Shown here: positions 607 through 56,258 of the stretch, one piece after another
How the letters are laid out: every line of letters starts with the position of its first letter
Numbering within the stretch: position 1 is the stretch's first letter
Assembly (NCBI GenBank): GCA_028693445.1
Contig: JAQUVI010000002.1
Location: forward strand, 130,971-194,970
Direction of reading: 5' to 3'
Source of the DNA: Candidatus Absconditabacteria bacterium
GTDB lineage: Bacteria > Patescibacteriota > Gracilibacteria > Absconditabacterales > Absconditicoccaceae
DNA: 64,000 nt
Translations under genes and position numbers: made by a program
Notes under the pieces: model-generated
Databases searched by the model: none
Seen by the model: only the letters and a program-made list of their open reading frames with translations
Told to the model about the DNA's origin: nothing

Positions 607-3600
607 TTATTTTTTAGGATTGTTTTTGTTTATATGATCTTGAAGTATTTTTAATGTATCAAATAATTTTGGTACAACCATATTATATGATCAGAATTTT
701 CCTGTTGTTGTTTTAAATAAATTATAAATTTTACCATTTGGTGCTTTATATGGTGATGTACTTCGAGAATTATCCACTGTGTAGTTTAGAGAATTTCAAG
801 GATTGTTTTTATCAATAAATTCTTCTATATCTTTTTTGCTAGCAAAGTATTTTGTTTGATTTGAAACACTAAAATTTATTGAAGAATATCATAATCATGC
901 TTTATAAGCTACTGAATATTTTTTACCATTTGGTGCTGTATATATATAATCTTGATTATTGTTTATATCTTCTACTAAACGATCATATATATAACGTAAT
1001 TTTGCTATTTCTTTTGCACTAGCTCATTCTTCTTCTAATTCGTCTATTTTTTCTTCCATCATATCTTTTAATGTTTTTTTAAGATTATTATCTAAATTTT
1101 CTATTAATAAATATAATCATTCTAATTCTATTATTTCATTTACTGATAGATCAAAATCATCATCTTCGTCATCATAATCAGAGCTTTTTTCTGTTATTAA
1201 TTTGAATACGGCAGCTTGATCTGCTATAGTTAATGTTGATGTTGTAACCTCGTAATATTCTTCACTAGATCTTAATTCTATATAAAGAACATCTCAATTT
1301 TTTACTAAAGATTGTTTGTTTATATTTGCTCAATTTACGAATAATGTTCATTCATCTATACTTGCTGTAACCAAGGTATGAGTACTTAATCAAGATATAA
1401 CAATTGAATTTGATCTGTATATTGTATCTCTTTCTACATCAGTTTGTCTAGAAAAAGTAAATTGTTCTGGTGATGTATCTGGAATACCTGTATAATTAAA
1501 CATAGCAGATTCTGATCGATTACTATTGTTGCCTATATAATCTATTGCTTGCACTTTTATTGTAAAAGTTCATTGCAATCATAATTCCATATTTTCTATT
1601 GTTATTGATGGATTTGTTCATGTTCAGGATTTTATAGTTGTTGTTCATTGTTGTATTGTATAAATATATTCTTTGACTCAAGCTCAATCATCTGTGGATT
1701 CTGGCCGTGTTAAAACAATACTTCATGTATAATTTTGATTATTTATATTTGTGAGATTTGGTTTACTTGGTGGTGTTGTGTCAAAAATCACAGTTTGTTG
1801 TGAATATATTTTTGCTCAAACAGGATCTTCAAACTCTATATAAATATTTTTTTGTCATTCTCATGGAGTAAGCGTTATTGGTGTTGATCTATTTCAAGCA
1901 AGTATTTGTTCATTTATTATTGCTAAATTATTTGGTCAAACAATATTTCATGTTATTGTTGCCTTTGTTATGTTGTTTATATTTGTTTCTAGTGTTATAT
2001 TTCATGTTTTAGTATAATTTACGTTTGCTACATTTATAACTCATCACAAACTAATTTGTCATGTGAGAGGAACCTCTAATATTAATGGAAATATTGGAGA
2101 TTTGGTTTTGTTTCAAGCTTTATCAAAAATAGTTACTTGTCGTTCATATGTTCAATTATTTAAATTTGTTATAGTTTTATTTGTGTTTGTTGTGAAAAAA
2201 CCTGTAAAAAAGGCACCATAACTATCTCCAGATAATGTAAATTCATATCATGAAAAATATCAATCATATCAAGTCCATGAAAAGATAACTGTGCTGTTTC
2301 AAGTTATAATTTTTCAACTTAAGGGTGAAGTTAGGTTGATAGTTGGTAATGTTGTATCTATAATAAAATTTACTTGTGTGCTATTACCAGCTTCATCAGA
2401 TGCTATTATTTGATACAAAGCTTCTCATCATTGAAGATTTACTACATAAGGAGATATTTGATGTCATGTTTCTAAAGTTATTATTCAATTTCTTTTTACA
2501 GTTATATTATATATTGGTTCTCAGCTTTCATCTACAATAATTGGCGCAGGATTTGGAATGTTTTTGTAATATCAACTATTTGTTATATTATGTATTTGTG
2601 GAGAAGTTTGATCTATTACTATTGTTTGTACAGGTGAACATCACACATTTCCTGCTATATCATACGCACAAACTTGTGCTCTATATTGATTATTTACTTG
2701 TATACCTGTTTGAGTGTAAGATGTATTTGTTCAACTATATACAATATTGTTGTTCATAGAAAAAGTATAATGTTTTATCATCCAATTTGATTTGTTTATA
2801 TTGCTTCGTGAATAAACAATATTTCATGTGCTATTTCTTCTTCATCATAAAGGATTTAATGATAGACTAGGAACTGTTTTATCAATATAAAAATTGAAAA
2901 TACCAGTTCATATCTCGTTGTCTTGAGTTTTATATCACAAATAAACTTTTAGGTTTCATGTATTTCCGTTGTTTCGATTTATTGTTTTTGTTATTGTTTG
3001 TCATATATCTAAGTTTGTATAATTTCATGATTCGATAAAATGTGTTGCTCAAGTTGTTCATGTGTATATAGAATAATCAAATGATTTATTTCATGAAAAA
3101 AGTATTGTAGGATTTTCATTTGTATAGCCAGTATTTCATAATATATATGCTGTTGTGCCTGTAAAAATGCTATTTAATTTGTTGAAAGTAAATCTAGGGA
3201 TTGATCATGTTGAAATATTTCCTGCTTTGTCTTGTATTTCTATTTTTCGATTATATATTCATTTATCTACATTTATTAGTGTGACTCATGTATTGCCTGC
3301 AATAACTTCTCAAGATGTAATTAGAATTGTTCAGCTATAAAGATAATATTTTTGTGATTGGATTCTTGTTGTATTTTCATTTATTTGTCGAGATAATTTT
3401 AATGAAGTATTTGTATAAGTTGATCAACTAGCTGGTTGTAAATTGGTTATAGATGGAGGAGTTGTGTCTATTTCAAAAGAAATTCCAGTTTGATTTCAAG
3501 CCCAATCTTTTGCTATGATATTGTAAATTCATTCAATAGGAAAAGTACTATCATAATAATCAATTCATCAACTCAAAAACAATGCTTCGTTGAATATTCC

Positions 3601-4464
3601 AGATAAGTTTGTATCAAAAATTTGAATTCTGATTCATGTGTTGTATAAGCCGTTATTTTCTATTGATACTCATAATTTTGTACCTGTAATTATTGGTGAA
3701 ATGTCATCATGAATAATTGTGTTTTTTGTATGATTTATTATATTGTAAGTCTCATAAAATAATGTATCTATTTCGTTTTCATTGTTGATATTTTCTAATA
3801 TTATAGCATAGTTCTCATTATCTGTTCAAGTAATTTTTCAAGTTAATTCTGTATTTATATCTCATGTTATTGAATAATACATGTTTGTATTAGAACTATT
3901 TTCTAGATATATATTTGTTGATGGAGTTGTGGTATATTTTTGTAGTCAGACACGATTATTATGATAATATATGTTATCTATGATGCTATATTTTGTATTT
4001 GTAAAATCAATCATACCCAAAAAATCTACATCTCAATTTCATAATATAGCTATACAATTACCGCTAAGAAATGTTTTATCTATTACAGCAAATTTTCATC
4101 AATTAAGTATATATATTGTGTTTTCTGTTATAATTTGTGGTAATACTTGTATGTTTTCGTTGCTTCCTGTTATTATTATAAAATTTATTAGTTCTTTTAT
4201 ACAAGAACTTTCATATCAACTCATTTTTTTTGTATAAGCAGTTGTTCAGCTATATAATGCATCGAAAACATCTCCAGTTGTAGGAGTTTGATCTCGAAAA
4301 GTATTGTCTATATAATTATTTGTGTCTCGTACCAATCAAGGTTCTTCTCGAGCAGAAGTTGATTTAATTAATAAACCTATAGCAATACAAGTAATTGCTA
4401 TTATTATAATATGTTGTACAAACATTAGTTTTTTTAAATGTTCTTTTCGTTTGATCTTTTTCAT
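607..4464 (-). CDS. Large surface protein with Ig-like repeats and duplicated C-terminal domain
   Basis: About 1,285 aa with TGA=Gly; the frame was sampled at 1201, 2401, 3601 and 4141 without stops. The N-terminus has basic residues followed by one hydrophobic segment (about residues 15-33), a signal peptide or membrane anchor. Most of the protein consists of Ig-like modules of the kind 'NGTYxxxVTIFDKAGN' and 'YQIIASDEAGNST', typical of bacterial adhesins. Near the C-terminus is an acidic, Glu-rich helical stretch, then two tandem copies of a roughly 55-residue domain with 'TAPNGKKYSV' and 'KAPNGKIYNL' ending in 'NNPG' and 'NNPKK'. The same domain ends the giant neighbour upstream. It lies 115 bp downstream of that gene on the same strand, so the two may be co-expressed. 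Role as adhesin is inferred. Confidence 0.8.
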
Positions 4465-4579: not shown

Positions 4580-7500
4580 TTATCTAGGATTGTTTTTATC
4601 TATATATGATTTCATTTCTGATAACGAAGTGAAATATTTTTTGATTATAAAATTATGTGAACTATATCTTCAGTCAATAGTTTTATATAATTTATATTCT
4701 TTACCATTTGGTGCAATATGTGGTGCACTTACTCGTGTAGTATCTATAGTAACATCTGTTGTTATTGGCTTTGTTGTTGTGTCTTCTTCTTGAAGTTGTT
4801 CCAAAAGTTTTCTTAATTCGTCTAAGAAAGATGTTGTTGAAGTTGATTTATTGCTTTCTGTTGTGATAGTATATGTTGCAGATATTCAATTTGCTATTAA
4901 TATAGTATGATTTGATTCATTGTATGAATTGCTTGAATTTAATTGTATATAAACAATATCTCAATTTTTAACCAAACCAGAATTACTTGTTATTTTTGTA
5001 TCGTTTATAAACAAACTTCATGTTGAAAGACTGATTGGTATAGATGTATTATTACTTAATCATCAAATCACTATTTCATTTGATGTATATAATGTATTCT
5101 TTTTTGCATTTGTTGTTTTTGTGAAAGAAAATTGATTTGGTGTTGTATCTATTATTGTAGTTGTTTGTGCTTGTTGTGGAATTGTTATAGAAACAATAGA
5201 CGATCGTTGACTTAGATTATCAACATTATCTTGAGATTGAAATTTGATAGAAATCCAAGAATTGTATTGTACTTCAGATTTTGGTATATTTAGATAAGTA
5301 ACATCAGTAAATCATTCTTTTACTTTTGTATATTGGTTATTGATCTCATAGTTGTATCATTTAATACCAGAAACATCGTCTGTAGAAGGACTTCGTTTTA
5401 TTATATAATAGTCATTATTTTCAATTTGTTCTGTTATTATTGGAATGCTTGGAGGAGTTTGGTCTATCGTAAACGTATGAGTACGAGTAAATATCTCTCC
5501 TGTGTTTTGAGTTTGTAAATTAATATAAGCTGTTTTTTGTCAGTTGCTTTCTGTGAAATTTCCTGTTATTGTATTGGTTCATTCTGATAATGATAAAGTT
5601 TTGGTTCAATTTAATCATGTAAGTGTTCCTGTACATGCTTTGTTTGTTGTAATTGTTGCTTCAAATATATCATTCATAAATGGGTTACTAGAGAAAATAA
5701 CATTGAATGGTACAGCGTCTCTTGGTTGTGTAAATAATTGTGTTTTTGTATTTTCTTTGTTTCCATGAATATCTTGGCTATAGTAACATATTGTTCTGTA
5801 ATCTGTTGTTGATGGCGTATAAATTATATTTATTGTTGATCATGAAATATATGTTGTATATCAAGATGTTCAGCATGAGCTAGTATTCCAAACTCAAGTT
5901 AATATTTTGTAGTATGCTGTCGTTGTAGATGTGTCTTGATATAACAATTTGAATGATTCATGACTTCATGTTGTAATTGTTGTGATTGGCGCTGTTGTAT
6001 CTATGTTTAATGCGTATGCTTTTATTATTGTAGATCTGTAATTTCCATCAGTTAGTGTAAGTTCACAAAATCATGTTCAAATATTGTTTAATATTGGTTG
6101 GAATGAAATTCGGTTGTTTGTTATTTGACAGTATCATTTTGATCATGAACTTATAACTGCTGTGATAGTAGTATTAAATTCTGGATCTTTTGCATTTGAA
6201 GCATCTCTTCGATCTCAAGTTACAAGCTTGTTTGTTGTATCTGTGCTAATATCAAAATTATTTGCAACTGGATTTATATATGGTCGAATTCATGTTGCTA
6301 TTTGGCATTCGCGTCATGTATTTATGTTGTTTACTCATGTTGCTCAGTTGGCATCTCGTAAATAATAAGAGAATTCTCGAGTACCAGATTTTTCACTTCA
6401 TGTAGTAAATGATTGTCATGTTTGATTTAATATTTCGTTTGTACATCAAGTTCAAGAATATCGTTGATAAGCAAAATTAGTATTACCAGGATCTGATCAA
6501 GTTGCATTGAATGTTATATATACGTTTCAACTAGCGTTTATATAAATATCTTTTGCAGTTGGAATAATATTAAGTCGGTTTCCTGTTGCTATAGTACATT
6601 CACTTCGAAGATTTTGAGCATCTTTTATTTTGTAAGAAAAACCTATGATAGAAGCTTCATTTCTACCTGTTGTAAATGTTTTTCATATTGCTCATGCTAT
6701 TGTTGTTCAAGATCAACAATCTGATGATAGATATCGTTGATATCAAGTATTTGTTGTATTACCAGGATCATATCATGAAGCAGTAAATGCGATTGTAGAT
6801 CATTCGTAACCAGTTACTAATAGTGGTTCTGTAATTATAGCTAGATTTAATCGTTCTATTGTTTGTGTATAAATTTTGTTGTTATTTGATTGATCTCGTA
6901 TTTTTACTTCCAATATTCAAGTAGTAGGTTCATTTTCAGTTTCTATAATTATTTCATTTCAAGAACTTTGTCGAGATCTAGTTGTTGATCGATCTGACCA
7001 AGAAGAGGTATTTGGTTTTTTATATCTATAAATAAATCATGAAATACTTGTTGATTCATCATAACCAGTTAAAGATATATATAAATCTTCAGATTCATTT
7101 CATGTATAATCTGTGAATTCTATTATAGGTGCATTATTGTCTATAATTATTTTTCATGTAAAAATATTGTTTCAATTTACTATTCAAGTAAGTGTATATA
7201 TACCATCAGCTAATCATGTTTGTGAGAAATTCAAATCTCGTTGTGTTCAATTGATTTTTCTAAAATTAATATTGTATATATCTGATACCTCATTTGATGT
7301 TATAAATTTATTTCGTACATGTAATTCATCAATAGATCAATTTAGTTGTCCGTGATTATTATTTCGTCATATAATTGTAGGGTTTGAATTTGTAGGGTAG
7401 TATCAAACTATTCTATTTGTTCGTGTTTGTTCTCAATTAACATAAATATACATATCTGTACCATCATATGTTCGTAGTAGATGATTTCGTTGTCAGTTAG

Positions 7501-10500
7501 TTAGTATTGAAGTAGTATAAGAATTTGTATTGTGTCGTCGTCATTCATCTGTTGTTATTTTTAGTGATCAATCTTTGATAGTTAATCAATATGATCATTG
7601 TTTGTATATAATTGTTTGATTTTCTGTTGAATTAATTTTGATTCGAGAACTGAATGTTAGTCAGGTTAATTTGTTTATAGTACCTATATTTAAAAATCAT
7701 GTATTTGTAGAAAAAGTATATGCTCATCAGAATTTAGAATTTAACTCTCAATATGTTACTCATGATGTTTGTAATGTTTGTCAACTTGCTGAAAAATCAT
7801 GAATTGAATTAAAATATATTTTTGCATCGAATGAAATTTTATCACATTGATTGTTGTTTTTTGAATCGATAACAAAATATATTTTTTCACCAGAATTGAT
7901 TGTTGCTTCTGTAGTTGTATTTTCTGTTAGATCTGATAAGTCTTTGGTATATATTGTATTACTTGTTTCGTATGAGTTTCATTTTTTGATTGTATAGATA
8001 ATTCAATCTGTTGTTGTACAGTATCATGGATTTGCATTTTCTATTTTGTTTTCTATATCTATATTTCAGCTTATATTGCTAGTTCGTTCATATACAAGAT
8101 TACCATATTTATTTGATCAAGGGTATGATTGTCAACTATTTATAAATATGTATTCATAATCTTGTAAAGGCTCGTTTATGATTCGTGATTGTGTCCTTGG
8201 GTTAAAAACAAAATCTCCTGTCGTAGTTCAATTATCTCGGAAATATTTCCAATTATATTCATTTTCAAATTTACCAAAATCATTTGTAGAATCTGTGATT
8301 AAAATTCTATCAAAAGAATATTTTCTAATCAATGTATTATCTTGTCATGTTGTTGTTTTATTTATTAATCAAGATCATTGTGTTGTTTCTCATCATCGGT
8401 TAATAATAAAATTTGTAATTTCTGGAATATATATATTTGAGTAAAGATTAATAAAATTTTTGTCTGATGTGATTTCTGGGAATGGTTGTATTCGTGATGC
8501 CAAGAATCAAGTATGTATATCAACAAATGCAAATAAAATATATTCATTATTATCAAGTTGGATTATACAGCTGTCATTTCATTGTATTTCTTCTTTTCGT
8601 GTATAAATTATTTCTGTTTTATTTCCTGTCAATGCACAAATTCATTTTTGACCATTAACTATTATTTCATTTCCTGTTTGTGAGTATCAAGCCCACAATC
8701 AATTTAAACTATTTCGATTACCTGTAATATTTCATCATTTTCCATCTCATGTAAGATATACTGTAAGATTTGGAAATCCTAGTTGATCTTGCCAATTTCA
8801 AGTAAGGTTTACACAAATAGAAGGTTCTTGATAATTGTCAAAAACTTTGAAAGAATATAAACCTGTCCATTGTATATTGCTTCCTATAGTAAGTGTAGAA
8901 TTTGTTTCTGTAATAAGTATTTCATTACAATCATGTCAAGTATATCGTTGGTATGTTAAATTACTTCATTCATCTAAAGCATTTGCTACAAAGGTAATGT
9001 TTGATCAAACCTCTGCAATATATTCGTAAACTTGATTGTTTGATATTATTGGACCTGTATTTTGCCAAGATATATTATTTGTGGAAATTAATTCTTGTCA
9101 GAAAATATCTCTAGTTTTGATTTCTAGGTTTCCTGTAATAGGTTCTATTTGTGATGGTATTGTTATTGTAAAATTTGATGAATTACTTCGTTGGCTTCGA
9201 GTTGTTGGATTTTGATTTACTATATATCTTCGTTGATATCAAGAAAATTGACTTCAACTATCGTAAAATGTTCAAGTAATTGTAAGATTTTTAGATTCTA
9301 ATCCAGTTAATCAATTTATGTTTTTTATAATAGGTCAATTGAAATCTATTATTATATTAAATCAAGTTGTGTTTGATAATATTATGTTTTGATTGTATTT
9401 TCAGTCGTATGTTCAATTTATAAATGCATCTTTGTTTTCTGTCAAAGATCGATTATATGGTCAAATTTTGTTTAAATTATATTGGTGTAACAATGTGATA
9501 ATGTTTTGTGGTAATACATAATTATAGATATATATTTCATCTATTTTACCTATAAATTGACCGTGTTCTATACTATATCAAATTATTGTATTTTCAGTTG
9601 ATAATCAAATAGATCAATTTATATATTTGCTTCGTATATTTTCTCAATTTTTGTAAAGTTTCATATTTAATCAATCATAACTTCGTCATATATGAGTTCG
9701 TTTATTTGCTTCAATTTCTACTTCAGTATTAAATCGTTGTTGTGTTGATTTGTTTGTTACATATATTATTCAACTAGATAAAGCAATACCATATGAAGAT
9801 CATTTTTGTATGATTGTTTGATTTCAATTTGTGTTTTCTGGATTTATTCGAAAAGCTATACTCATCTCTGAGGTGTTTATCAATCATGTACCAAGGTTAA
9901 CTGTTTGATTGTTGTTTGTAAATTGGAAGGCTCATCATTTTTTACCTTCAATAGTATATTGTGCTCAGCTGTTTGTTGCAAAAGTTTGGTTTTGAGAAAT
10001 ATTCGTTTCTGGTAATTGGTATATTTGTATACGATAATTTGTTGTATCACATAAATTATTTCAACTACTATTTATTTTGAAATACAAAGATTCTGATTCT
10101 GAAATTGTTGTTTGTATTGTTTGGTTTCCGTAAGATCATGAATGTATATTTTGTGTTCATTTTAATATTTCATATTTGATTCCATCTCCACAACTTGCAA
10201 TAGCATCGCTTAGATTGAAATTAATTTCTATATTTGAGTGAAATGGACTAGTTCGTTTTAGTACAATATCACCGTAATCATCACCAGGATTTAATGTGTT
10301 TGATTTTATAAACATACCGTCATATTCTTGTATAGGTGTTGATACAAGTCGTTGTTGACTAACAGGGTCATATTGTAAATCGGTAAAGTTTCATGTACCT
10401 CTAGGTCTCCTTTGATAATTTCGTCATTTATAATTTTGTATTGGTCCAAAATCTGTTTGAGAATCTGTAAGTAATATTTTGTCAAAATTATACATAGCAA

Positions 10501-13500
10501 GAAGTCATGTATATATATTTCAGCTTATGTAGTTTGAATTATTTGTTCAGCTTATAGTTTGTGTTAATCAAGTTAGATTATTTGTTATTATATTTATATT
10601 GAATAAGTTGCTTGTTGGTGATAATAATCGTTGTTGTTGAAATAAGCTTCCTGTTATAGAGAAGAATGTTCTGTTTATATTGATGTTGTTGAACCATACG
10701 ACAACTCTAGAATTTACATTATCTCATGTTTGGATTATACAGTAGTCATTTCCAATCGACTGTGAGTTTGCTGTATATGATGTATATTCTTCACTGCTTG
10801 CACAGATTCATTTTGTTCAAATATTTATTATTGTACCTGTGATAGCTATTTGTCCTGTGTTTGATCATTGTAAATCTATTCATGTTGTATATATAGTAGA
10901 TCATGTGTTTAGTACTTGATCGCTTCGTATTGCAACAAAATTATGACAAGATCAAGATCATTGATTGTCAAAAATTTGATAAGAGAAATATCATGTTGTA
11001 GGAATATCTCTTTTTGTACTATAACTTTCTGATGTTTCTCACGCTATAATTTGATTTATAGGACATCATCAAGTACTGTATCGTTGGTAATTTAGTTGAC
11101 TTCATGTATCTACTCATACAGCATTGAATACAAGTAGCTTTTCTACAACTCAGCTATATTCGGTTATTGTATCAGTTATTGTTGGTCAAATATTGATCCA
11201 TTCAATATTTCCTTCATTTGTCATTTCAAATCAATATTCATCAGTTATTTTTACTGATATATTTGTTATTGTTGGTTCGTCTTGAACTGGTATTGTTATT
11301 GTTGTACCAGTATCTTGATATATTATCGATCATTCATTGATAGTCCAATCAATTTTTGTGCTTGATGGATCTGGTAATATTCCAGTTCGTGAAACCAAAA
11401 GAGCTTGGCTTTCAAATCAAGTTGTTCACAGAAATCAGCTAAATGTAGGAGGATTTGCGTTTAATCGTTTTATTTCACCTGTTATTGTGGTTGTGTTTCA
11501 TATTTTATCTTCAATTATTGCTCTTATAATACGAGATTCTACTGCATTTTGATATGGAATAGTAATTGTTTCTTGTGTAGCATCAATTGTTCAATCATCG
11601 TCAATATCTCGTTGATAACTTCATGTATTTATTCATAATCAAAAATTTTCATTTCGTATTCAAGAAAGTGTAATTCAAAATTTTCATGGTATTTCTATTG
11701 TGTTTCATCCTGTTGAATTTGTTGTTCAATTTACTTCCCAAGATCGTCAAGAGAATAGAGGACCATTAAAATCTTTTCGTATTTCTCATCATGTAGAATT
11801 TGTAGTTCAGTTTTGTGAGGTTGATGTAATAGTGAAATCAAAATTACCTTCGTTTATTGATCAAGATGTGTTGCTAGTCCAATTCCATTTATCCCAATCG
11901 GTTCTATTTAAATTATGTTCGTAAAGAGTAGCAAAATGTCAGCTAGATATTGCTCAACTGTATATATAAAGTTCATCAATCATTCAATTTCGTTGTCCGT
12001 TTGAAGGACTATATCATATATATGTAGGATTTGAACTTTGGGCGATACTTCATTGTAATCATTGAATTTTTTCTAGTTTACCATTTATATATATATGTAT
12101 TGTAGATCAATCATAACTTCGTCAAATATGAGTCCATGTATCGTTTGGAATTTCTATCTGTGTATCAAATCGTTGTTGAGTAGTTTTATTTGTGACTTGT
12201 AGAGTATTGTTGAATATAGAAATACCATAAGAACCTGTTTTGATCAGAATTGTTTGATTTGCTTGATCTGATGTTTTGTATAATCGCATGCTTACACTCA
12301 TAGCTCAAGTATTGTGTAATCAAGTACCAAGATTGATAAACTTGTTGTTTTCTGTAAATTCAATGGCTCATCAAAATTTACCAGTCTGAATATAGTTTGC
12401 TCATGAATTGATTCCAAATGTAGGTGTAGTACGAACATTGTTTGCTATATTTGTTTCTGGACGTTGATATATTTTTATGCGATAATTTGTAGTATCGCAG
12501 TCGTTGTCTAGATTGCTATTTATTCTCAAATATAAATTATCATTTTTTGTGATACTTGTATTTATTGTGTGATTTCCGTATGTACCAGAAGATATTTCTA
12601 TATCTTCGTTAAATAATTTGTATGTTATACCATCACCACAAGTAGAGTTATCGTCAATCAAACTAAGTTCTACTTTGATATCAGCACTTATTGGACTAGT
12701 TCGTCCAAGTACAGCATCTCAATATCAATAACCAGGATTTATTTTATTATTACTGATAAATAGTCAGTCAAATTCTTGTATAGGATTGCTAACAATTCGT
12801 TGTTGACTTTCTGGATGGTATTGTAATCATGTATAATCATTTCATCATAGTTGTCTTCTTAGATACAACCAGTTTTTACCAAATTGAGTTGGCATAAAAT
12901 CTTCTAAAGAATCAGCCAATAATACTTCATCAAAATTATATAATCAGATTAGATTTTTTTCAAAAATGTTAAATTTATCTATATTTGAATTATTTGTTCA
13001 GCTTATAGTTCGAGAAAAACCTGTAAGATCAGTATTTTGAATTGTTGTTTCGAAAGGATTTGTTTTGGAACTTATAATATAATAATTGTTTTCTATGGTA
13101 CCTGTTAATGTGAATAGGGTATTATATCGATTTACTCCGTATCGTCCCAGAACAATTTGTTGGGTTCATCAACTATTTATTATACAATAATCATTTCCTA
13201 TACCTGTTCATAAATAACTTGTAGAAATAGATCATGATGAACAAATTCCTATAGTTCATTGTTGTATAATTGGTCAACCTATATCTATTGTTTTTGTATC
13301 AGATCATTCTAAATCTGTTCATGTATTTCAAATACTAGTTATTGTATCTTCATCAAAAAGTTGCCATATACCAGTGAAATCATGACAAGTTCCGGATAAT
13401 TGTTGATCAAATATTTGGTAGGAGAAATTTCATGCGTAAATAACGTCATATGTTTTTGTGTATGTATCGTTTGTTTCTCAAGTTATTGCGTTTCAGCTAC

Positions 13501-16500
13501 TACAAGTATGTCAACTATATCGTTGATAAGTAAAATCTTCTAGATTATTACCTGTATCGGTAAATCATGTGATTGTAAATGTGATAGGTTTTTCTACTAG
13601 TCATGTATATTCTGTTTCTTGAGCTGTAAGAGATGGTCAGTTATTTATCCATTGGATAGTTCAAGTAGAAAAAGTTTGATATCACCAAACATCTTCTGCT
13701 ATAATTTCTATTTCTCAGATAATTGGTTCGTCTTGGGCTGGTATATTTATTTCCGTTTTTCATGTAAATACAAGATCTCATGTTCATGGAATCCTTATGG
13801 TTCGAGAAAAACCTGTCGTATATAAATCATTTTGATCTATTCATGTTCGTTTTATTTCGATATTTTCACTTTCATTTAAAATTATTTCATTATCAATGAT
13901 AGGATCATCATTATTATCCAATAAACCACTAAATATAGGTCAGCCAACATTTTCTCGTTGTAAATTCACAGATTCTATTTCTTTGAAGCCTAGATTATTT
14001 GTAGCCCTTATTTTTATTGTTTTTTCCAAAATACCACTAGAATTTGGCATTATAGCTCATGTAGGGAAAGTTATTTCGATATTATTTCATGTGTTTAGTA
14101 TTTCAAAATCACCATCATTATCAAGATCTCGATCGTATCATGATGATGAATTTATTGTTATATTTACATCTTCTGGCTCTGATGCGTTAAATGTTCAGGT
14201 TATTGTTAGAGAGTCTCATTCAAATCAAATTGTTCATTCCCATCAGCTAAATATAGGTCAATTAACGTCTGTCCAAATTATATTACCAGTTATATTTAGT
14301 AGATTTCATGCCAAATCTTCTACACTGAATCTGATAATATGAGAAGCTGTGTAATCATAATTTATATAAATAGTATCTCATGTTGATTCTATACTTCAAT
14401 CGTCATCAATATTCCAAATATATGTTCATGTATTAATTCATTTTCAAACGCCTGTAAGTAATATACCAGAAAGTATTACGTCTTCTTGTCACAATACAAA
14501 AATACCAGTATCTGAAAATCATGTTAGTTGACTACCAGTCATAATCCAACTTCGTCAACTAAATTCTGGAGCTGTAAAATCTCTTCGAATTTCTCATGTT
14601 TGTGTGCTATTTCAATTTATTGATCCAGTAAAATCATATCGACCATCGTTTATTCATCAAATTTGATTACTAGTCCATGTCCATCTATCCCAAGCTATTT
14701 TATTTAAGTTGTGTTCGTAAAGTGTAGCAAAATGTCAGCTAGATATGTTTCAACTATAAATATATATTTCATCCAACAAACCTAATCGTTGACCATGTGG
14801 AAAAATATATCAAATTTGTGTTGAATGATTATTTGGTGCTAAATTACTTACAGTATAAACTGTTGTCTCTAATTTACCATTTATGTAAATATCGGCTGAT
14901 TCTCATTTATGACTTCGACCTATTTGAGTTCGAGTATAGTTTGGAATTTCTATTTGTGTATTAATTAATGTATAATTATCTACTACGTGAAGTTTATTTC
15001 CACTAATAATTAATCAATACGATCATCGCTTTTCTATGATTGTTTGAGGTGAATGATCTCATATTTTATATGCTCGTAGACTAATACTCATTTTTGGAGC
15101 GAAAATACCAGTTCATATACTTACATATTGACCTAGAGGATTATCACCAAAAAAATCCAAAGCTCATCAATATTTACCATTTTCAAAATAATTTGCTCAT
15201 ACATTTGTTCATCGATATTGGCTTTTTTGAATTAGATTTGATTCTGGTAACTGATATACTTTGATATCATATATAGCAACATCGCAAAAATCATTTTGTT
15301 TACTATTTATTTCAAAATATATCGAATCTCATGTTTTTATTTTTATTACTTTGCTGTCTGATATTGTAGTTCATAATTCTGGTATTTCTCAGGTATGGAT
15401 TGTTGATGTATTTAATTTAAATTTATATTCTATTCAATTCCCTATACAGCTTTGATTACTATTTGGGTCTAATTCAAAAGAATATTCTACTAGTACTGTG
15501 GAATTTACAGGACTTGTTCGTCAAATAACAGCGTCACCGTATAAGTTACCAGGATTGATAAGTTTATTATCTATAAAAAGATCTTCACCAGTACCAATAA
15601 CTCGTTTTTTATGTAATATATCATATTGTAATCATGTATAAATTGTTTCACCTCTAGGTCTTCTAAGATATGATCGATTTTTACCTGATTGGATAGGCAT
15701 AAAATCATTTTCTGAATCTGCGATTACTATTTTATCAAAATTATATAATCAGATTAGATTATCATCAAAAATATTGAAATTTCATGTGATTGGATTGTTT
15801 GTTCAACTTATAGTTCGTGAGAATCAAGTTAGATTTGTATTTTGAAATTGTAGTACAAATGGATCATCTATAGTATTTATTAGATATGGATTTTCTTTTT
15901 TGCCTGTAAGAGCAAATATTGTGTCGTATCGATTAATTCGGTATCGTCATAAGAGTATTTGGTTATTATATTCATCTTCAATGATACAGTAGTCATTTCA
16001 AATATTAGTTGATGAATATATTATGCTTTGATATTCTAATCATAAACTACAATTTCATATTAGTCAGTTCTTTAAAATGTCATTAATAGTTTGGATTGTG
16101 TATATTGTTGCAGTATATCATCAGTTTAAACTTTCTGACTTATTTCAAAAATCTGGTATAGTTCATTCTTCTACTTCAAACCATTCTCCAGAAAAAATCA
16201 TCATACTTTCTGCTCATTGAGAGTCTTTTACGATTACTTGAAATTTTCATGTAGAAGCATAATCTCTCCCGGTTGTATAAGAAGATCATGTTGCTCATAG
16301 TATTTCATTTCGATTTGTTGTTTGAGCAAATACCTTATCAAAATTATAAAAATTAAATCCAAAAGCTCCTTCGAGTTCATCTTCGAGTTCATCTTCAATT
16401 TCTTCCTCAATATACCATTGGTAGCTAATATCATTGTTTCCTGTATCTGTAGCTATTACAAAGAAAGTTAGTTTATCTTCTATATATCAGGTGATATTTG

Positions 16501-18697
16501 TGTTTCAACTTAATGTTTCCAAAACAGGTCATATATTTGACCATTCTATTTGTCAAGATCGATTGGTTATTCGTCATACGCTATCTTTGACATTTACTTC
16601 CAATTGTCATGTTGTTGGTTCATCTTTTGCTGGGATCGTAAATTCATCATTCATTGTCCAATTTGTTCGATTTGTTCGTTGTCAATCTAGATACCGTCTT
16701 CGTTGATATCAGCTAATTCAATTAGCATCTGTTCAGTTTATAGTTATATTTAGGTCTTTTGATTCGTCTTCGGTTATTCAATCAATACTAACTAATGGTC
16801 AAGATATATCTACAACTATTCTTCCTGTTTTATTTGATGAACCATATGTTCATGTATAATGATATGTTCAATCAATTAATCAAGTTTTGTTGCTTATAAA
16901 TTCTCGATATGGGTCGGTTCATTCTACTATTTTGAGGTTTGATTCGTAGAGTTGTTGAACTTGTTGTGCTGTAAATCATGTGTTGTACATACGTACTTCA
17001 TCTATTACTCAGTTTCGTCATCGACCATTTATTTCATCTAATCATATATAAGCCAAATTATCATTTGGTAATAATTGTCAAACTATATTATATGTTCGTC
17101 ATGATCAATTTGGGTTTGATGGTCATCAATTCTTGTAGAAATTCATAGTTTCTCAATCATATGTCCATGTTATATGAGTCCAAATTCAGTTTTCTAATGG
17201 TATATTAGTATTATGTCAAAACCAATAAGTACTTGGAGATACATAAAACATTCAATCTTTTAGAACTATTCAATAAGAATTTTGTTTTGTAATAATTCAT
17301 TGTGGTTGAGTATTGTCGTTTGTTTTTATCCAAGCTGAAATTGTTATACCAGATTTTTGATTTATTCAAGTTCAAAGACTATAAGATTGACTTCAGTTAA
17401 ATTCAATTGCTCATCAATATTTTCCGTCTTCTGTAAATGTTGGTGGTAATCGTGCTTCTTCTCAATCTGTAATATCGTGTATTTGTATATGATTCCAAGT
17501 ACCATCGCATTGATTGTCTCAACGATTATCTATTTCAAAAAATATTTTTTGTCAGTTGTTTATATTTATTTCTTTTTCTATTGTTACTCATGAAAATCAA
17601 TTATTTAATGTTCTGTATTCTATTAGATTTACTCCAAAAAGTAATCAAGTTGATGATATATTACCAATATATATTATGTATATTATACCATTTCCACAAT
17701 TGTATATATCATCATCTAGTGTATTTACAATTTTTATTTTTCAAGTGAGATTACTTGTTCGTTCTCGAATAATAGGAATATTACTCATTAAATCTCAAGA
17801 TCATGGATGTGCATAGTATTTACCGATATTTGCAAAATTGTATGTAGAAATTGGGTTTGCTCATATTTGTCGAATATTATCGTCTGTATTGTAAGTTAGT
17901 CATGTTAAGTTTGTGTTTTCTTGAGTTATTTCTTCATCTCGTGTACAATAAAAATCTACATTAGAACAACTTCGGTTTCCAGGACAAGAATAAGTTATTT
18001 CGTATTCATCCCATATACATTCGTATTCATAAATACCACAACTAGTATACTCTCAAATAGTACAACCAATTACTTCGTTGATAAAAAAATCTCATATTTC
18101 TGTATATCATTTGGGAAGGCTTTCTGGTTCACAAGTACTGTCCAGCCCAATATAATTAGTTTCGCTTGTACATGAATTACAGTCTTTTTCTGTTTGATCT
18201 GTAGTAAAACATCAGGTCATTGTTGCAGTTGATAAACTATCGCCAAATAATAAATATTTATATCTCCATCAATTTTGTCATTCTGTTCATCACGTAAAGT
18301 CTCTAATAGAATCAGCTAGTGGGATTGCATTGTCATCTGTAGATTGAGAGTCATCAAAATTATTGAAGTAAATTGTATTAGAAATGGGATTACTTGTATA
18401 TGGATGATATAATTTTGTACTTATTCAACTTCGATTTCGTGTAAATTGGCTAATTGGTCAAGAAGCTCAGAGTATTATATTTCCAAAATTTGATGTGGTT
18501 ATATAATTTCATATATTTTTGTTTATCAAAGGGAATTGTGTATTTACAATAGAAAATCATTCTCATCATTCTTGGGCTTTTGTACTTTGAATTACACCAA
18601 AAACTCATAATCATATAAAAACGATTAGTAAAGTGTGAATTAAAATATGTTTTGTATCAAACAATTTTTGTAGGAGATGATTCATCTGCTTTGGCAT
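4580..18697 (-). CDS. Giant adhesin-like surface protein (about 4,705 aa) with LamG-like and Ig-like repeats
   Basis: One reading frame runs from ATG at 18697 to TAA at 4580-4582 (14,118 bp) when TGA is Gly. I translated more than twenty 60-base lines spread over the whole length, and all were open in the same frame. The N-terminus has a hydrophobic segment (about residues 17-37, 'ILIHTLLIVFIGLGVFGVI'). Four LamG/concanavalin-like modules lie near residues 400-580, 1130-1320, 2070-2250 and 2880-3060. Each shows a 'WTHI..SYDG' strand and a closing 'IDEVRMYN'-type motif. Each is followed by a Cys-containing segment and Ig-like domains with 'YQW' motifs. The region after residue about 3,060 is mostly Ig-like repeats, and the last 55 residues match the C-terminal domain of the neighbour ('APNGKEYKLYKT'). 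Probably exported and involved in attachment to a host or surface (inference). Many Gly are TGA and many Trp are CGA, so standard-code tools shred it. Confidence 0.85.
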
Positions 18698-23018: not shown

Positions 23019-23044
23019 AGCTGAGATTATTCTCAGCTTTTTTG
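23019..23044. terminator. Bidirectional intrinsic terminator
   Basis: A perfect 8-bp stem (AGCTGAGA / TCTCAGCT) with a four-base TTAT loop is flanked by an A-run on the left and a T-run on the right. It serves the plus-strand Trx-CcdA gene and the convergent gatB, whose stop codon lies inside the loop. Confidence 0.9.
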
Positions 23045-24481
23045 TTGTCATAATAATTTTTGGATTAATTCGCCAGCCGTTTTTGGGTTGGTTTTTCATC
23101 AGGTTTTTTTCATTACTTGACCTACAAAGAATCATAGAGTAGTAGTTTTTCATCATTTGTATTGTTCTACTATTGTAGGGTTTTCTGTGAGAACTGATTT
23201 GATAATATTTTCCAATTCATTTTCATTTAATCATGGTGAATCAAATCATTTTTCTTTGATTATTTCGTTACAAGATTTTGATGTAGACAACATTTCTTCC
23301 AAAACATCCTTTAGTTGATTTTCTATGAGTTTTCCTTCTTGTGATTTGGTTAAAAATTCGATTAGATTTTCTTTGGAAAAGGGTAGTTGTGTTATTGTTT
23401 TGTAGTTTTCTTTGGTCCAAGCTGCTATTGGGCCACAAATTCGTTTTGCTTTGATTTTTGGATCTATATTTTCTATAGATAAGAAGTAGTCTAATGTCTC
23501 TTTGTCTGTTATAAGTGCGTTTATAAATTCTTTGTTAAATCAATATTCTTCTATTGCTTTTTTGATGAAATTATATGGAATTTCTAATGATGTATTATTG
23601 ATATTTTCCAATAGTTCATCACTGAGAATTAATGGTGGTAAATCAGGCTCTGGAAAATACCTATAATCTAACGCTTCTTCTTTTGATCTCATAAGGTGTG
23701 AACAGTTGTTTTGATCATCTCGACGTCTTGTTTGTTGAGAAAATGTTTGATTTGATTCGTAAAGTTCTTTCTGTCTGATAAATTCATTTTCTATAGCTCT
23801 TTTTATTGATCAAAATGAATTTATATTTTTGATTTCTACTCTAGTTCATAATTTTTCTTGATTTTCTTTTTTAATTGATATATTTACATCAACTCTCATC
23901 TGTCATTTTTCCATATCTGCATCTGATATGTTATTGAATCTAACTATTCTTTGCAGTTCTTTGAGAAATTCTATAACTTCATCAGAACTACAAAAATCTG
24001 GTCAAGTAACAACTTCTATCAGAGGAGTTCATGCACGATTGAAATCTAGTATAGATTTTTTATTTTCATGAATCATTTTTGCGGTATCTGATTCTAGATG
24101 TGCATCTAATATATGTATTGTCTTTCCTTGTCTATAATTGTCTATGTAAAAATTAACTTTTCAATTTGTGTTTGTTGGATGATAAAGTTGTGTGATTTGA
24201 TATCACATAGGGAGATCCGGGTAAAAATATGATTTTCTATCGAAACTAGATTCTTTGTTTATTGAACAATTTAATGCTTTACCCAAAATTAAGCCTTTGT
24301 ATAAAGCTTCTTGGCTTAGAGTAGGTAGAGCACCTGGTTGTCATGTACAAACAGGACATATATTTGTATTTGGTTTTGTATTTTCAAAATCTTGTTGATT
24401 TTTACATTGGCAAAAAAGTTTATTTTCTGATTTTAATTTTAGATGAATTTCCAGTCAGATTGTTAATATATAGTCGTTCAT
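23027..24481 (-). CDS. gatB: Aspartyl/glutamyl-tRNA amidotransferase subunit B
   Basis: 484 aa, normal for GatB, which binds the misacylated tRNA and performs the kinase/transamidation step with GatA. Recognised are the N-terminal 'YILTIGLEIHLKL', the zinc-site region 'LFCQCKN', '[20 protein letters not shown]' and 'DLPMGYQITQLY', and the C-terminal YqeY-like tail ending 'LIQKLLGQQKK'. Two nearly invariant tryptophans are encoded by CGA. One is in 'QQTRR-W-DD' (codon 23720-23722, residue 254; family 'TRLWDE') and the other in 'AK-W-ICG' (codon 23441-23443, residue 347; family 'NWI'). The start ATG at 24481 has no Shine-Dalgarno sequence. The stop codon lies inside the shared terminator loop. 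Confidence 0.96.
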
Positions 24482-24711
24482 AAGAATTTTTGAAATCTTA
24501 AAATAAGCTATCTCGCAATAAAGAACAAATTGGCTAACTAAGTTTTGAGCTTTGTCTCTCTGAGCGTAGTCGAAGAGAATAAGCTCTCTTATACTCTTCA
24601 TTTCATTCAGAGCGACAAAGAGAGATGAGTGATTATTTCCTTCTTTATTTATTCTTTTTATTGCTCGAATTATTAAGTTAATATTTTATCTTATAAATAT
24701 TAATATTGATT
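24482..24711. repeat. Intergenic region with a long imperfect hairpin (REP-like)
   Basis: No gene seen. Positions 24551-24621 form one long imperfect stem. The outer arm CTTTGTCTCTCTGAG faces CATTCAGAGCGACAAAG, and the inner arms GAAGAGAATAAG and CTTATACTCTTC close on a CTCT loop. It also contains 'GAGCGTAGTCGAAG', a string common in dispersed intergenic repeats of many bacteria. The local base composition is richer in GC than the flanks. It lies between clpP (upstream end) and gatB start, both minus, so it would be in the clpP 3' untranslated region. Confidence 0.6.
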
Positions 24712-25296: not shown

Positions 25297-25426
25297 TACA
25301 GTTTATAATTAATAGTTAAAAGTTGGTGATTTTTGGAGATATTACTATTTTATAATATAAAATCAACTTGAAATATTGTACAGTAATGATATATATTTTT
25401 TGTTATTTATATTTTATATATTCCTA

Positions 25427-26920
25427 ATGAAAAAATTTATTAAATCGATTTTTGTTTTAGGATTATTTGTTGTTTGATTTTCTGTTTTTGCAGACACACA
25501 AAAAACTTTTTTGGAAGCAGTTTCAGAAGAGAAAATAAAAATAGAAAATATGTTTGATACAGCTTATAATGTTGTATATCAAAATTTTCAAAATTCTGTG
25601 AAATGATTTTTGACATCATTGGATTATAAATGACTTGTATGTTTGTGAGTTATTGATGATTCTAAACTTTTGCAACAAATGCAAAATGATAATAAAAACT
25701 TAAAAATCTGATTTTTAAACGCTTATGCTAATTTGTATGCTGATGCATTGGATATAGAACAAAAACAACGTATTTTAAAAGATACAAATGTTTCTTTATT
25801 TGCGAGTTGAGCTAATTATGAATCTGAAAAGACTCGTATATTAAATTCTCTTTCTCAACTCGCTACTGGTCAGGCAAATTTGGTTAATAGTTTTAAATCT
25901 TCTTATCAGTGAAAAACTCAAAAATTTGTAGATGATTTCAATGATTATTCAGAAAAAAATAAAGAATTATTGATTACTGTTTGAAATAATATTAAAATAT
26001 TAAATGAAGTTGATCAAAAATATAAAAAATTAAATTCAGATTTGTTGGAATATCAAATACAATTAGCATGAAGTTGAGCTAAGTTTTTTTCTAGACTTCA
26101 TATTTTGAAAAAAGCCTCTCTTTCTGGTTTGGAACTTGTATTTCAAAATAACATAGATAAGGAAGTGAGAAGGAATAGGATATTAACAAATTTATCAAAT
26201 GAATTATCTCAACAAAAAAATTATGCTTTGTGACTTTATGAAATGCAATTTGATGAAAAAATCAATATGTTATTAGACAAATGGTATGATAATAAAGAAC
26301 TCACACAAATTTCAAAAGAAGTTCAACAATTTTACTCTAAATATATGCCTGCAGGTAAAATGCAATGTTCTTATTTTATATCTTCTTCTGATTTTTTGAC
26401 AGAATCTGCAAAACTTGTGTCAAAAATAACTAGTTTTAACCAAAATTTTTCTTCACAAAGTACATGAACGGTAAATAATGAACAATTTCAAGATGCTCTA
26501 ACAAAACGGATACCTGTTGTTATTAAATTACAAAAAGATATTACAAATACTTTCAATACTGCAGTTGTCGAAAAAAGAAAATCTATGCTTGAAGAATATA
26601 GAAAACAAAAAGATGTTTCTTATCAGTCATCAGTAGAAAATACTGTTCCATCTATAGAAATTGAATGATCTTTTGCTTTTACACAGGCTTTTAAAAAAGG
26701 GCAGTTCAACTCTGACATAAAAATATTACAGCAATTGTTGACCAGTTTGTGATATTATAATTGAATTATAGATTGAATTTATTCTTCTCAGACTATAAAT
26801 GCTGTTTATCAATATCAATTGGCAAAATGATTATTGAAATGATATGAAAAAAAACCATCTACTTGGTGACGAATGTGACCAGCTACTAGAGCGCAGTTAA
26901 ACAAAGATATTGTTAAATAA
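25427..26920 (+). CDS. Secreted helical protein with C-terminal peptidoglycan-binding domain
   Basis: 497 aa. A signal peptide (residues 1-22, 'FVLGLFVVGFSVFA') precedes about 380 residues of mostly helical sequence rich in Gln, Asn and Lys, without a recognised catalytic motif. The C-terminus (residues about 420-495) is a PG_binding_1 domain: 'DIKILQQLLTSLGYYNG', 'IDGIYSSQTINAVYQYQ' and a final 'GPATRAQLN'. Such domains hold proteins to the cell wall. The position just before a pilin-like gene suggests an extracytoplasmic structural or assembly role (inference). A CGA codon in 'TWG-x-MGPATRA' and a CGG in 'ALTK-x-IPVV' are uninformative about the code. Confidence 0.87.
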
Positions 26921-30107: not shown

Positions 30108-30179
30108 AGGGCCGTAGCTCAGGGGTAGAGCGGGAGTCTCCAAAGCTCCGCGTCGCGAGTTCAAGTCTTGCCGGCCCTG
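30108..30179 (+). tRNA. tRNA-Trp (CCA)
   Basis: A 72-nt cloverleaf. The acceptor AGGGCCG pairs perfectly with CGGCCCT, and the discriminator is G73. The D arm is GCTC-AGGGGTA-GAGC, the anticodon arm GGAGT-CTCCAAA-GCTCC and the T arm GCGAG-TTCAAGT-CTTGC. Anticodon CCA reads only UGG, so this tRNA does not read UGA, in line with UGA being glycine here. A1-U72 and G73 are known TrpRS identity elements. No CCA end is encoded. Confidence 0.95.
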
Positions 30180-32404: not shown

Positions 32405-34468
32405 TTAAGCCAAAATATCTCAAATTTTTTCTTCTAAATATATCTTTAGTTTATCTAGTCATTTGAGTTTAGGATATTTTTCTAATAACCGTTTTGCTCA
32501 TTCTTGGACTTTTTCTATAAATTTTAAATCTGATAATATTTCTATTGGTATATCTGTTTGTCATGCTTGCATTGTACCAAGAATTTCTCAAGGTCAACGA
32601 TTTTTTAGATCAAGTTCGGCTAGTTTGAATCAATCGTTTGTTTCTTCCATTGCTTTTAATCTTTTGTAGCTATCTCAAGTTTTCTTTTTTGTTTCTAAAA
32701 AACAATATGATTTTAGATCAGATCTTCAAATTCTTCATCTTAATTGGTGTAATTGTGAAAGTCAAAATCTTTCAGAATTTTTTATAATCATTATTGTTGC
32801 TTCTGGTATATCAACTCATACTTCTATTACGGTTGTTGACACAAGTAGACAATATTCGCCGTTTTTGAATTTTGTCATTGTTTCTTCCTTTTCTTTTGAA
32901 TTCATTTTGCCATGTATAAGTCAGATTTTATTTTTAAGTTCTGGTAAAAGTTTTTTTATTTCTTGATACTCTGATGTAGCAGCTTTGACCTCTTCCAATT
33001 TTTCGGATTCCTCTACAAGGGGAGTGACTATAAAAACCTTTTGTCATTCATTAACTTTTGATATAATTCGTGGTTTTAATTTTATATATTCGTTTTCTGA
33101 AATAATTTTTGTGGTTATTGGTTGTCTTCATTTTGGTAATTCATCTATAATATGTACATCAAATTCGCCGAAAAAAGCTAAAGCCATAGATCTTGGTATA
33201 GGAGTAGCACTCATTTGTAATATATCAGGATTGCCAAATTTTTTGAAAACAGCTCTTTGTCTAACTCAGAATTTATGTTGTTCATCTATCACAACAAATC
33301 AAAGATTAGAAAAACCTACATTCTCTTGTAAAAGAGCATGAGTTCATATTGTTATATGAATTTTTCATTCTTTTATTTCTTTTTTGATTTTTTCTTTTTG
33401 TGCTTTTGGTGTCGATCATGTGAGTAATTCGATACGTATTCACAAAGGAAGAAAAAGTTTGGCTAATGTTTTATGATGTTGATTGGCTAAAACTTCCAAA
33501 GGTGCTACAAAAATACTTTGTTTGTTTTTTAAATAATACATATAATAGGCAATAGTTGCTGCTACAATAGTTTTACCACTTCAAACATCTCATTGTAATA
33601 AAGCCATCATTGGTTTTATGTCGTGTATTGATTCTATACAATTTTTTATTACTTTTTTTTGAGCATTTGTTAGTTTAAAAGGTAATTTTCCTATGAAATT
33701 TTTGATAATTTCTCGACGAGGGTCAGATTCATCAATTCTTTTTAGAGAATTTTTTTCATATTCTTCTTTCTGTATAAGAGAATGTAATTGAACTCTAAGT
33801 AATCTATCAAAAAATATTCTTTGTAAAGCTGCTTTTTGTAATTCGTAACTTTCTGGAAAATGTATATTTTTTATTGTTTCTTTTACTCATAAAAGATTAT
33901 ATTTTTCTAGAAATTCTTGAGGTAGATGCTCATCAAAAATATTATCAATGTTTTCCAATAAATTCCATATTTTTTCTGCGAATCGTCATGGTTTTATGCC
34001 ATATAATTCTGAATATATTGGATATATTCTTCACATGTTTGGTATGTTTGTTTGTTCTTGTGTGGTGTCAGAAGTTTGTATTATTTCTGGTTGGTTAAAA
34101 ATTGCTTTTCATAATTTAAAAAATGGCTTTCATACTATAATATATCGTTGATTTTCTTTTATTTTGCTTGCTAGATATCAAGAGTTAAATATGTTTATTT
34201 GTCATAATTGTCATTGTTCGTCAATAAATATATATTCGTATACTTTTCTTCATCTTCTTGGTGAAAACTTTTTTTCTATTATTTTTCATTTTGTGGTAGC
34301 TACTCATTTTTCATTTATAGTTAATTCTGATAATGGTTTTATAAAACTTCTATCTTCGTAGCTTCTAGGAAAATATTGGAGAAGATCTTTTATGGCTTTT
34401 ATGCCATTACTTTCCAAAATAGAACTATACTTATTTGTTGTTTTTAGTTGTTCTTTGAGTGTGTTCAT
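32405..34468 (-). CDS. recG: ATP-dependent DNA helicase RecG
   Basis: 687 aa, normal for RecG, the helicase that remodels stalled forks and branched DNA. The N-terminal wedge/OB domain contains '[12 protein letters not shown]'. The helicase core shows Walker A 'LLQGDVGSGKT', the TRG-like segment '[18 protein letters not shown]', 'IIDELPKGRQPITT', '[15 protein letters not shown]' and motif VI '[18 protein letters not shown]'. All conserved arginines I could check are AGA or CGT, never CGA. The ATG at 34468 has no Shine-Dalgarno sequence. Confidence 0.95.
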
Positions 34469-51422: not shown

Positions 51423-51521
51423 ATGTAGACATAATTATCTGTAAAAATTTGTATTTATGTATAGAATTTTATCTATATATCATTTTAATTTACTTAATAA
51501 ATGTCAATATTTTGTATTATT

Positions 51522-51592
51522 CAGGAAGAGTAGGAATCGAACCTACGACACAGGAGTCGGAGTCCTGTATTTTACCATTAAACTATCTTCCT
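51522..51592 (-). tRNA. tRNA with anticodon CCG (reads CGG; nominally Arg, possibly Trp or Gln)
   Basis: A 71-nt cloverleaf. Acceptor AGGAAGA/TCTTCCT, discriminator G73, D arm GTTT-AATGGTA-AAAT, anticodon arm CAGGA-CTCCGAC-TCCTG, variable TGTC, T arm GTAGG-TTCGATT-CCTAC. The anticodon CCG would decode CGG. Bacterial tRNA-Arg normally starts G1-C72 and has A73. This one has A1-U72, G2-C71, G3-C70 and G73 as in the tRNA-Trp at 30108. The D loop also resembles tRNA-Gln/Gly. Given CGA=Trp in this genome, a tryptophan-charged tRNA is plausible; this is inference. The 5' end overlaps the nuclease gene upstream by 15 bases. Confidence 0.9.
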
Positions 51593-51961
51593 ATAAATAT
51601 TGTATTCTACTTTTTTATTTTCTATGCATTGTTTTATCATAGATTCATTTTTATTTAGCGTAGAGGAGTTGGTTTTTATTTCTAAAAAAACTATTTTTTT
51701 TAAGTTTCAACGACTTAATCAATCGAAAACTATATAATCTACTCATTTTCACAAAAAAACCAAATCTTTGTAATGATAAGGGAAATCAGGAAGAAGCGGT
51801 GCTATTTTTTCATTTACGTTTCAAAGTACAACATTACGTGATCTTGTTACAGCATCTTGGCGTTGATTTTTTATTTTGATAAAAAAATAAACTCTTGATA
51901 TTAAATAACCTATGATGAAACCTACTATAATTCATATAATTATTAGAAACTCTTCTCCCAT
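51578..51961 (-). CDS. Holliday-junction-resolvase-like endonuclease (PF10107 type)
   Basis: 127 aa. One N-terminal membrane helix (residues 5-22) precedes a nuclease-like domain: 'RSRNVVLGNVNEKIAPLLPD', 'FPYHYKDLVFLGKGVDYIVF' and 'DGLSRGNLKKIVFLEIKTNS'. The D..ExK pattern (VDYIVFDG and EIKT) is that of the restriction-endonuclease-like fold predicted for this archaeal-resolvase-related family. The C-terminus 'NIYRKIV' is encoded by the first bases of the tRNA(CCG) gene, so the two overlap. The role is probably membrane-associated DNA handling, unproven. Confidence 0.88.
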
Positions 51962-55403: not shown

Positions 55404-56258
55404 ATGGTCGCTTTTTCTCTGTTTTGAATTTCTATTTATTGGTATGGTATATTTTATTTTATGACTTTTTTGTTTTGATATTTATTTTTATTGTTTGTTA
55501 GAAAATATTCCTTTTTTGAAAAATACGCTCCTAATCTTTATAATTTATTAAATAAAGATCCAGAAGATATTATTTTGTATTCTGTATTGTGAATTATTGT
55601 CTGAGGTAGATTGTGACATATTTTTATTTATGATTTTGCTTATTATTTAGAAAGTCCTTTGAAAGTTTTTGCTATTTGGGAATGATGAATGTCGTTTATT
55701 GGTGGTATTATATGAGTTTTGATTTCTTTATTGTTTATTTTTCGTAAATATTGATTTTCTTTTCGTGATTTGATTGTTTTAACTGATTTAATTATATTGC
55801 CAGTAGGTTTTTGAGTTATGCTTTGAAGAATTTGAAATTTTTTAAATCAGGAGCTTTATGGTCGTTTGGTTAGTGATGTTTTTACAAATATTTCATTGTC
55901 AGTTGTAGATATTCTTTCTCATTTTAATTTGTTTTATGTTTATGATAGTATTGATTGATTTTTAAGAATAAATACTAATTTCTTGGCTAGCTTTTTTGAA
56001 TGATTTGTTGTTTTTGTTGTATCTTTAGTTGTTTTATCTGTTTCTATCAAAAAAAAGAAGCGAAAAACAGGCTTTTTGTCATCTTTTTTTATTGTTTGGT
56101 ATTCGTTTGTTAGATTTTTCTTGGAATATCTCAGGATGGATAGTCAATCAGAATATGTAGCTTTTTTTACAAAGAGTCAGTGGTTTTTTGTTATATTCTT
56201 TCTTATATGAATTTTTATTATGTATCGTTCTTTAAAATCTTCTCGTTATATAAAATAA
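55404..56258 (+). CDS. lgt: Prolipoprotein diacylglyceryl transferase
   Basis: 284 aa with seven or so transmembrane helices. It adds diacylglycerol to the lipobox cysteine of prolipoproteins. Family signatures: 'GRLGHIFIYDFAYYLESP' (arm with GR.G), 'WEGGMSFIGGIIGVLISL' and 'GFGVMLGRIGNFLNQELYGR', then 'RFFLEYLRMD' near the C-terminus. The usual 'MSFHGG' histidine is Ile here ('MSFIGG'). TGA encodes the Gly of WEGG, GRIG and others. The last 13 bases overlap the convergent AbiEi-like gene. Confidence 0.9.

Follow-up and report, generated by a model that had tools for sequence, protein, structure and literature searches.

The DNA analyzed here is a stretch of 64,000 nucleotides (the window) with a GC content of 24–29% in 4-kb windows. 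Its minus strand carries a genuine, well-supported tRNA gene with anticodon CCG, given below with the tRNA to which it is compared.

51522–51592, minus strand: tRNA gene with anticodon CCG, predicted tryptophan acceptor (ARAGORN, Rfam, fold test)
51558–51560, minus strand: anticodon CCG, reader of codon CGG (direct sequence reading and ARAGORN)
30108–30179, plus strand: tRNA-Trp(CCA), canonical reader of UGG, with A1-U72, G2-C71, G3-C70 and G73 (ARAGORN, Rfam)

ARAGORN calls a tRNA(ccg) at 51521–51593 (minus strand) and labels it Arg, a label derived from the anticodon. Rfam model RF00005 matches 51522–51592 on the same strand with 70.5 bits (E 2.2e-13), and the fold beats that of shuffled sequences (z -2.56). 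The tRNA reads, 5' to 3', AGGAAGA UA GUUU AAUGGUA AAAU A CAGGA CU[CCG]AC UCCUG UGUC GUAGG UUCGAUU CCUAC UCUUCCU G. Its anticodon stem is complete with five pairs, its D loop (AAUGGUA) has seven bases and lacks A20, and CCA is absent from the gene 3' of G73. A promoter scan around the gene gave matches at chance level. The surrounding 4.5 kb is collinear in a genome of the same genus (G032) at about 80% identity, and the G032 copy of the tRNA differs at few bases (96% identity).

A preliminary description of this DNA gave the anticodon as CCG in its title and as CGG in its text; only the former is correct, CGG being the codon. The same description listed A1-U72, G2-C71, G3-C70 and G73 and likened the tRNA to the tRNA-Trp(CCA) at 30108. 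All four elements are read in the sequence and are common to both tRNAs. The anticodons have only C34 and C35 in common, as tRNA(CCG) has CCG and not CCA. Judged by these elements, tRNA(CCG) appears to behave as a tRNA-Trp yet is not a UGG isoacceptor. The D loop was also described as Gln-like, and AAUGGUA does equal the D loop of the genome's own tRNA-Gln(UUG). C38 in the anticodon loop matches this tRNA-Gln as well. Hardly any other species has C38, however: A38, the base of tRNA-Trp, stands in the G032 gene and in most family members. The likeness to tRNA-Gln at C38 is not a family feature.

The genome has 36 tRNA genes. Its CGN box consists of an Arg-type tRNA(GCG), a tRNA(UCG) and tRNA(CCG), and no tRNA(ACG) is among the 36. 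The window holds no tRNA(UCG), as had been noted, and a search of the genome, which had been suggested, found one outside it. This tRNA is also Trp-type, so a reader of CGA is accounted for.

G000:C8:74344–74414 (L027): tRNA(UCG), Trp-type (genome tRNA survey)

These features are conserved. Family tRNA(CCG) genes have A1-U72 in 20/20 and G73 in 20/20, with A20 in 0/20; family tRNA(UCG) genes have G73 in 14/14 and A20 in 0/14. Family tRNAs with anticodons GCG, UCU and CCU retain the A20 loop, and A73 is present in all but one. Outgroup tRNA(UCG) genes have A73 in seven of eight and mostly carry A20. In a tRNA tree, the CCG and UCG bodies do not group with tRNA-Trp, although this is weak; grouping with Trp or with Arg is not rejected (p-AU 0.54–0.56). 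A single group of CCG and UCG is likewise not rejected, and the tree does not separate an Arg, Trp or Gln origin.

The genome's tRNA(UCG) has an A27-C43 mismatch, which leaves a four-pair anticodon stem, and eight of the 14 family UCG tRNAs have it in common. This stem bears on the superwobble idea of PMC13092985. The family tRNA(CCG) genes of G067 and G070 also lack the 27-43 pair, contrary to the "all 5-bp" statement of that paper for the group.

The code of this genome departs from the standard one at UGA as well. Long open reading frames (ORFs) appear in the window once UGA is read as glycine, and of 338 UGA codons aligned to E. coli homologues, 207 fall on Gly. The genome also has a Gly-type tRNA(UCA) (G1-C72, C2-G71, G3-C70, U73). 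Absconditabacteria and Gracilibacteria read UGA in this way; the code, the low GC and the relatives of this genome suggest a placement in Absconditabacteria.

To determine the meaning of CGG and CGA, we compared the window and other stretches, together about 40% of the genome, with G032. The comparison was limited to ORFs that do not overlap and span 100 codons or more; overlapping ORFs gave false pairs from shadow frames. The genome's CGG codons align at 15 sites with UGG (7), CGG (4), CGA (2), Gly (1) and Ala (1), and never with Arg or Gln. Its CGA codons align at 256 sites, including CGA (166), UGG (47), CGG (6) and Arg codons (2). Overall, UGG pairs with UGG, CGA or CGG in 90% of cases, and CGG does so in 87%. 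Because CGG is rare, the direct count is small: nine CGG sites are informative, and seven of them are UGG in G032. The preliminary description had named CGG sites aligned with Arg as the observation that would speak against Trp, and none of the nine is such a site. Examples from the window are as follows.

607–4464, minus strand: ORF with CGG where G032 has UGG (IVLT[CGG]PESTDDGAGV / TLN[TGG]PVSTDDGSGI)
25376–26920, plus strand: ORF with CGG where G032 has UGG (ALTK[CGG]IPVVIKL / AITK[TGG]IPLIIQL)
32405–34468, minus strand: RecG-like helicase ORF (named by eye) with CGG where G032 has UGG (QEGAK[CGG]LLEKYP / QEGAK[TGG]LLEHYP, 88% identity)
55404–56258, plus strand: Lgt-like ORF (named by eye) with UGG where G032 has CGG (TKSQ[W]FFVIFF)

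The exonuclease III gene (G000:C3) has two CGG codons, each aligned with a Trp in PDB 3g91 and 3w2x (YTW[CGG]SYR...RNVG[CGG]RLDYF against YTWWSYR...RNVGWRLDYF in 3g91). Six CGA sites align with Trp in E. coli proteins, including the APGGW site of an RlmE-like protein and two in IleRS. By these alignments, UGG, CGG and CGA are synonymous codons. Apparent matches of CGA to Arg in E. coli proteins come mostly from one ORF (L046:17459–17701), which resembles a shadow frame and may lie antisense to rRNA, and we rejected them. In the GatB-like gene at 23027–24601, the first CGA does not fall on Trp (the best PDB match has F), and we left it out of the evidence.

The same counts weigh on the two other readings that had been left open beside Trp. 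If CGG were still Arg, tRNA(CCG) would be an atypical tRNA-Arg. CCG is the standard anticodon for CGG as an Arg codon, tRNA-Arg tolerates G73, and the ARAGORN label is Arg. However, Arg codons fall on Arg of G032 in 77% of cases, and 0/9 would have a chance of about 2e-6. Both exonuclease III codons lie on Trp, and A20, missing throughout the family tRNA(CCG) genes, is kept in the D loops of the genome's own GCG and CCU tRNAs. We therefore regard an Arg meaning as very improbable.

A Gln meaning, in which the tRNA would receive Glu for GatCAB to convert to Gln (the window has the GatB-like gene mentioned above), has several features of the tRNA in its favor. The D loop, C38, G2-C71, G3-C70, G10, A37 and G73 match the genome's tRNA-Gln(UUG) or known Gln elements; G73 with a weak 1-72 pair would suit tRNA-Gln too, which is a counterpoint to Trp. 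For Peptacetobacter, moreover, PMC8629427 predicts Gln as the meaning of CGG. Here, however, none of the nine informative sites is Gln, for which the chance would be about 1e-5 given that Gln codons fall on Gln of G032 in 71% of cases. The tRNA has C35 in place of U35, and C38 does not occur in the G032 gene or in most family members. We give a Gln meaning the same very low probability as an Arg one.

The reading as Trp, one of the three options of the preliminary description, is thus supported over Arg and Gln by the CGG and CGA alignments and by the conserved G73, A1-U72 and missing A20. From this comparative evidence, tRNA(CCG) is very probably a Trp-accepting reader of CGG. In this genome, by the alignments above, CGA and CGG are Trp codons and UGA is a Gly codon; tRNA(UCG) would read CGA and probably CGG too by wobble.

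CGA is a common codon here: in sampled ORFs it occurs about 51 times per 10,000 codons, compared to 67 for UGG. Within the window there are 147 CGA and 116 UGG codons, the CGA count being inflated by one giant gene (4580–18697, minus strand, 4705 codons) that holds 102 of the 147. The choice between the two codons also differs by strand in the window ORFs: 57 UGG and 8 CGA on the plus strand, and 59 UGG and 139 CGA on the minus strand (p 1e-16). This bias agrees with the positive GC skew of the plus strand; most of the CGA codons are in the giant minus-strand gene.

The genome has a single TrpRS gene, and we infer that this one enzyme charges tRNA(CCA), tRNA(CCG) and tRNA(UCG) through their common G73 and C35. 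Loss of A20 would keep ArgRS off tRNA(CCG) and tRNA(UCG). In the E. coli TrpRS–tRNA structure (PMC12135181), G73 is contacted by Glu155 with Gln152; C35 by Lys274, Thr225 and Asp226; A36 by Ser227 and the Thr225 backbone; and C34 by the Tyr270 and Gly271 backbones. Compared to tRNA-Trp(CCA), tRNA(CCG) and tRNA(UCG) retain G73 and C35 and have G36 in place of A36; tRNA(UCG) also has U34 in place of C34. The TrpRS anticodon pocket may have been relaxed or rebuilt at the sites that read A36 and C34.

The substitutions in TrpRS follow this division. Among 31 family sequences, Glu155 (31), Gln152 (30), Thr225 (31) and Lys274 (31) are conserved. Ser227 survives in three and is lost in 28, Gly271 is Lys in 26 and kept as Gly in five, and Met221 is Lys or Arg in all 31. 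In standard-code relatives with the same TrpRS class, Ser227 and Gly271 are each present in 29/29 and Met221 in 28/29. Residues 221, 227 and 271 are three of the seven near-invariant columns, out of 62, that changed in the family. Enrichment at contact residues is not significant (two of six contacts changed, p 0.13) and reaches p 0.03 with residue 221, which was picked post hoc. One family member, G079, has two full-length TrpRS genes (contigs C1 and C5).

We put at about even the chance of a two-sided change. The Arg-box tRNAs are Trp-type, and the TrpRS pocket would have been rebuilt (Ser227 lost, Met221 to Lys/Arg, Gly271 to Lys) to accept G36 and U34 with the readers of C35 and G73 kept; loss of the A36-reading Ser recurs in another lineage with CGG as Trp. 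The covariation of TrpRS residues with the anticodon rests largely on one clade, which we counted as one event, and the causal tie between the two is our inference. The TrpRS changes could instead be clade-specific drift, with G73 and C35 enough for charging. This competes with the enzyme part only and leaves CGG and CGA as Trp. The non-significant contact enrichment and the single clade are in keeping with drift, as is the variation of Ser227 and Gly271 elsewhere in Bacillota, including some members without a Trp-type CCG tRNA. Against drift, substitutions are found at the sites that read the two differing bases, whereas Thr225, Lys274, Gln152 and Glu155, the readers of the common bases, are kept. 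We hold drift to be a serious possibility with a somewhat less than even chance.

Another lineage with a Trp-type tRNA(CCG) also speaks weakly against drift. All four RFN20-like genomes with this tRNA lack Ser227, compared to seven of 19 relatives without it (p 0.04). Since position 227 drifts across Bacillota, the link between Ser227 and the anticodon is suggestive only. Anaerococcus TrpRS was considered as a convergence test and dropped because it is of a different type.

The survey turned up further tRNAs outside the family. Two Gracilibacteria-like genomes with UGA as Gly (G012 and G059; L178 and L176) have a Trp-type CCG tRNA (A1-U72, G73), and no UCG tRNA was found in them. Two others (G014 and G051) have an Arg-type tRNA(UCG). 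TrpRS residue 227 is Asp in five of seven Gracilibacteria-like genomes. A Solobacterium sp. MAG (L221, 1088–1161) carries a tRNA(CCG) with A1-U72, G73, no A20 and D loop AAUGGCA, together with a TDP-type TrpRS. Solobacterium is outside the published groups with CGG as Trp, and its tRNA suggests a possible further CGG reassignment.

This genome clearly exemplifies a change in the meaning of a sense codon among bacteria. With CGA and CGG as Trp, default translation puts Arg at hundreds of Trp sites, besides breaking genes at UGA. Reassignment of both codons to Trp in Absconditabacteria was predicted in 2021 by Shulgina and Eddy from the same kind of tRNA evidence (PMC8629427) and again in a 2026 paper (PMC13092985). 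With the tRNA and enzyme evidence combined, the 2021 prediction can be put to a direct test that needs one enzyme and three tRNAs. The text of PMC8629427 has no match for "tryptophanyl" or "TrpRS", and a literature search of open-licence papers found nothing on TrpRS changes in these lineages.

Like the Absconditabacteria of PMC8629427, this genome combines low GC, UGA as Gly, both CGA and CGG in Trp columns, a tRNA(CCG) and a tRNA(UCG) that have G73 and lack A20, and a tRNA(GCG) for CGU and CGC. It differs in that CGA is frequent; the paper's value, below 37, was measured differently, in Pfam-aligned codons. Anaerococcus and the RFN20 and Onthovivens Bacilli, which read CGG as Trp, similarly have a short tRNA(CCG) that lacks A20 and carries G73, U72 and the D loop A(A/G)UGGUA. 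Unlike here, CGA is still Arg in these groups and tRNA(UCG) is missing (PMC8629427), and the TrpRS of Anaerococcus and Finegoldia is divergent, its anticodon loop containing TDP. Compared to the E. coli TrpRS–tRNA-Trp complex (PMC12135181), the family conserves Gln152 and Glu155 (G73) and Thr225 and Lys274 (C35) and differs at Ser227 (the A36 reader), Gly271 (the C34 site) and residue 221. The use of CGA and CGG for Trp here is a further instance of a reassignment already known in kind, to which the TrpRS residue pattern is added as a hypothesis.
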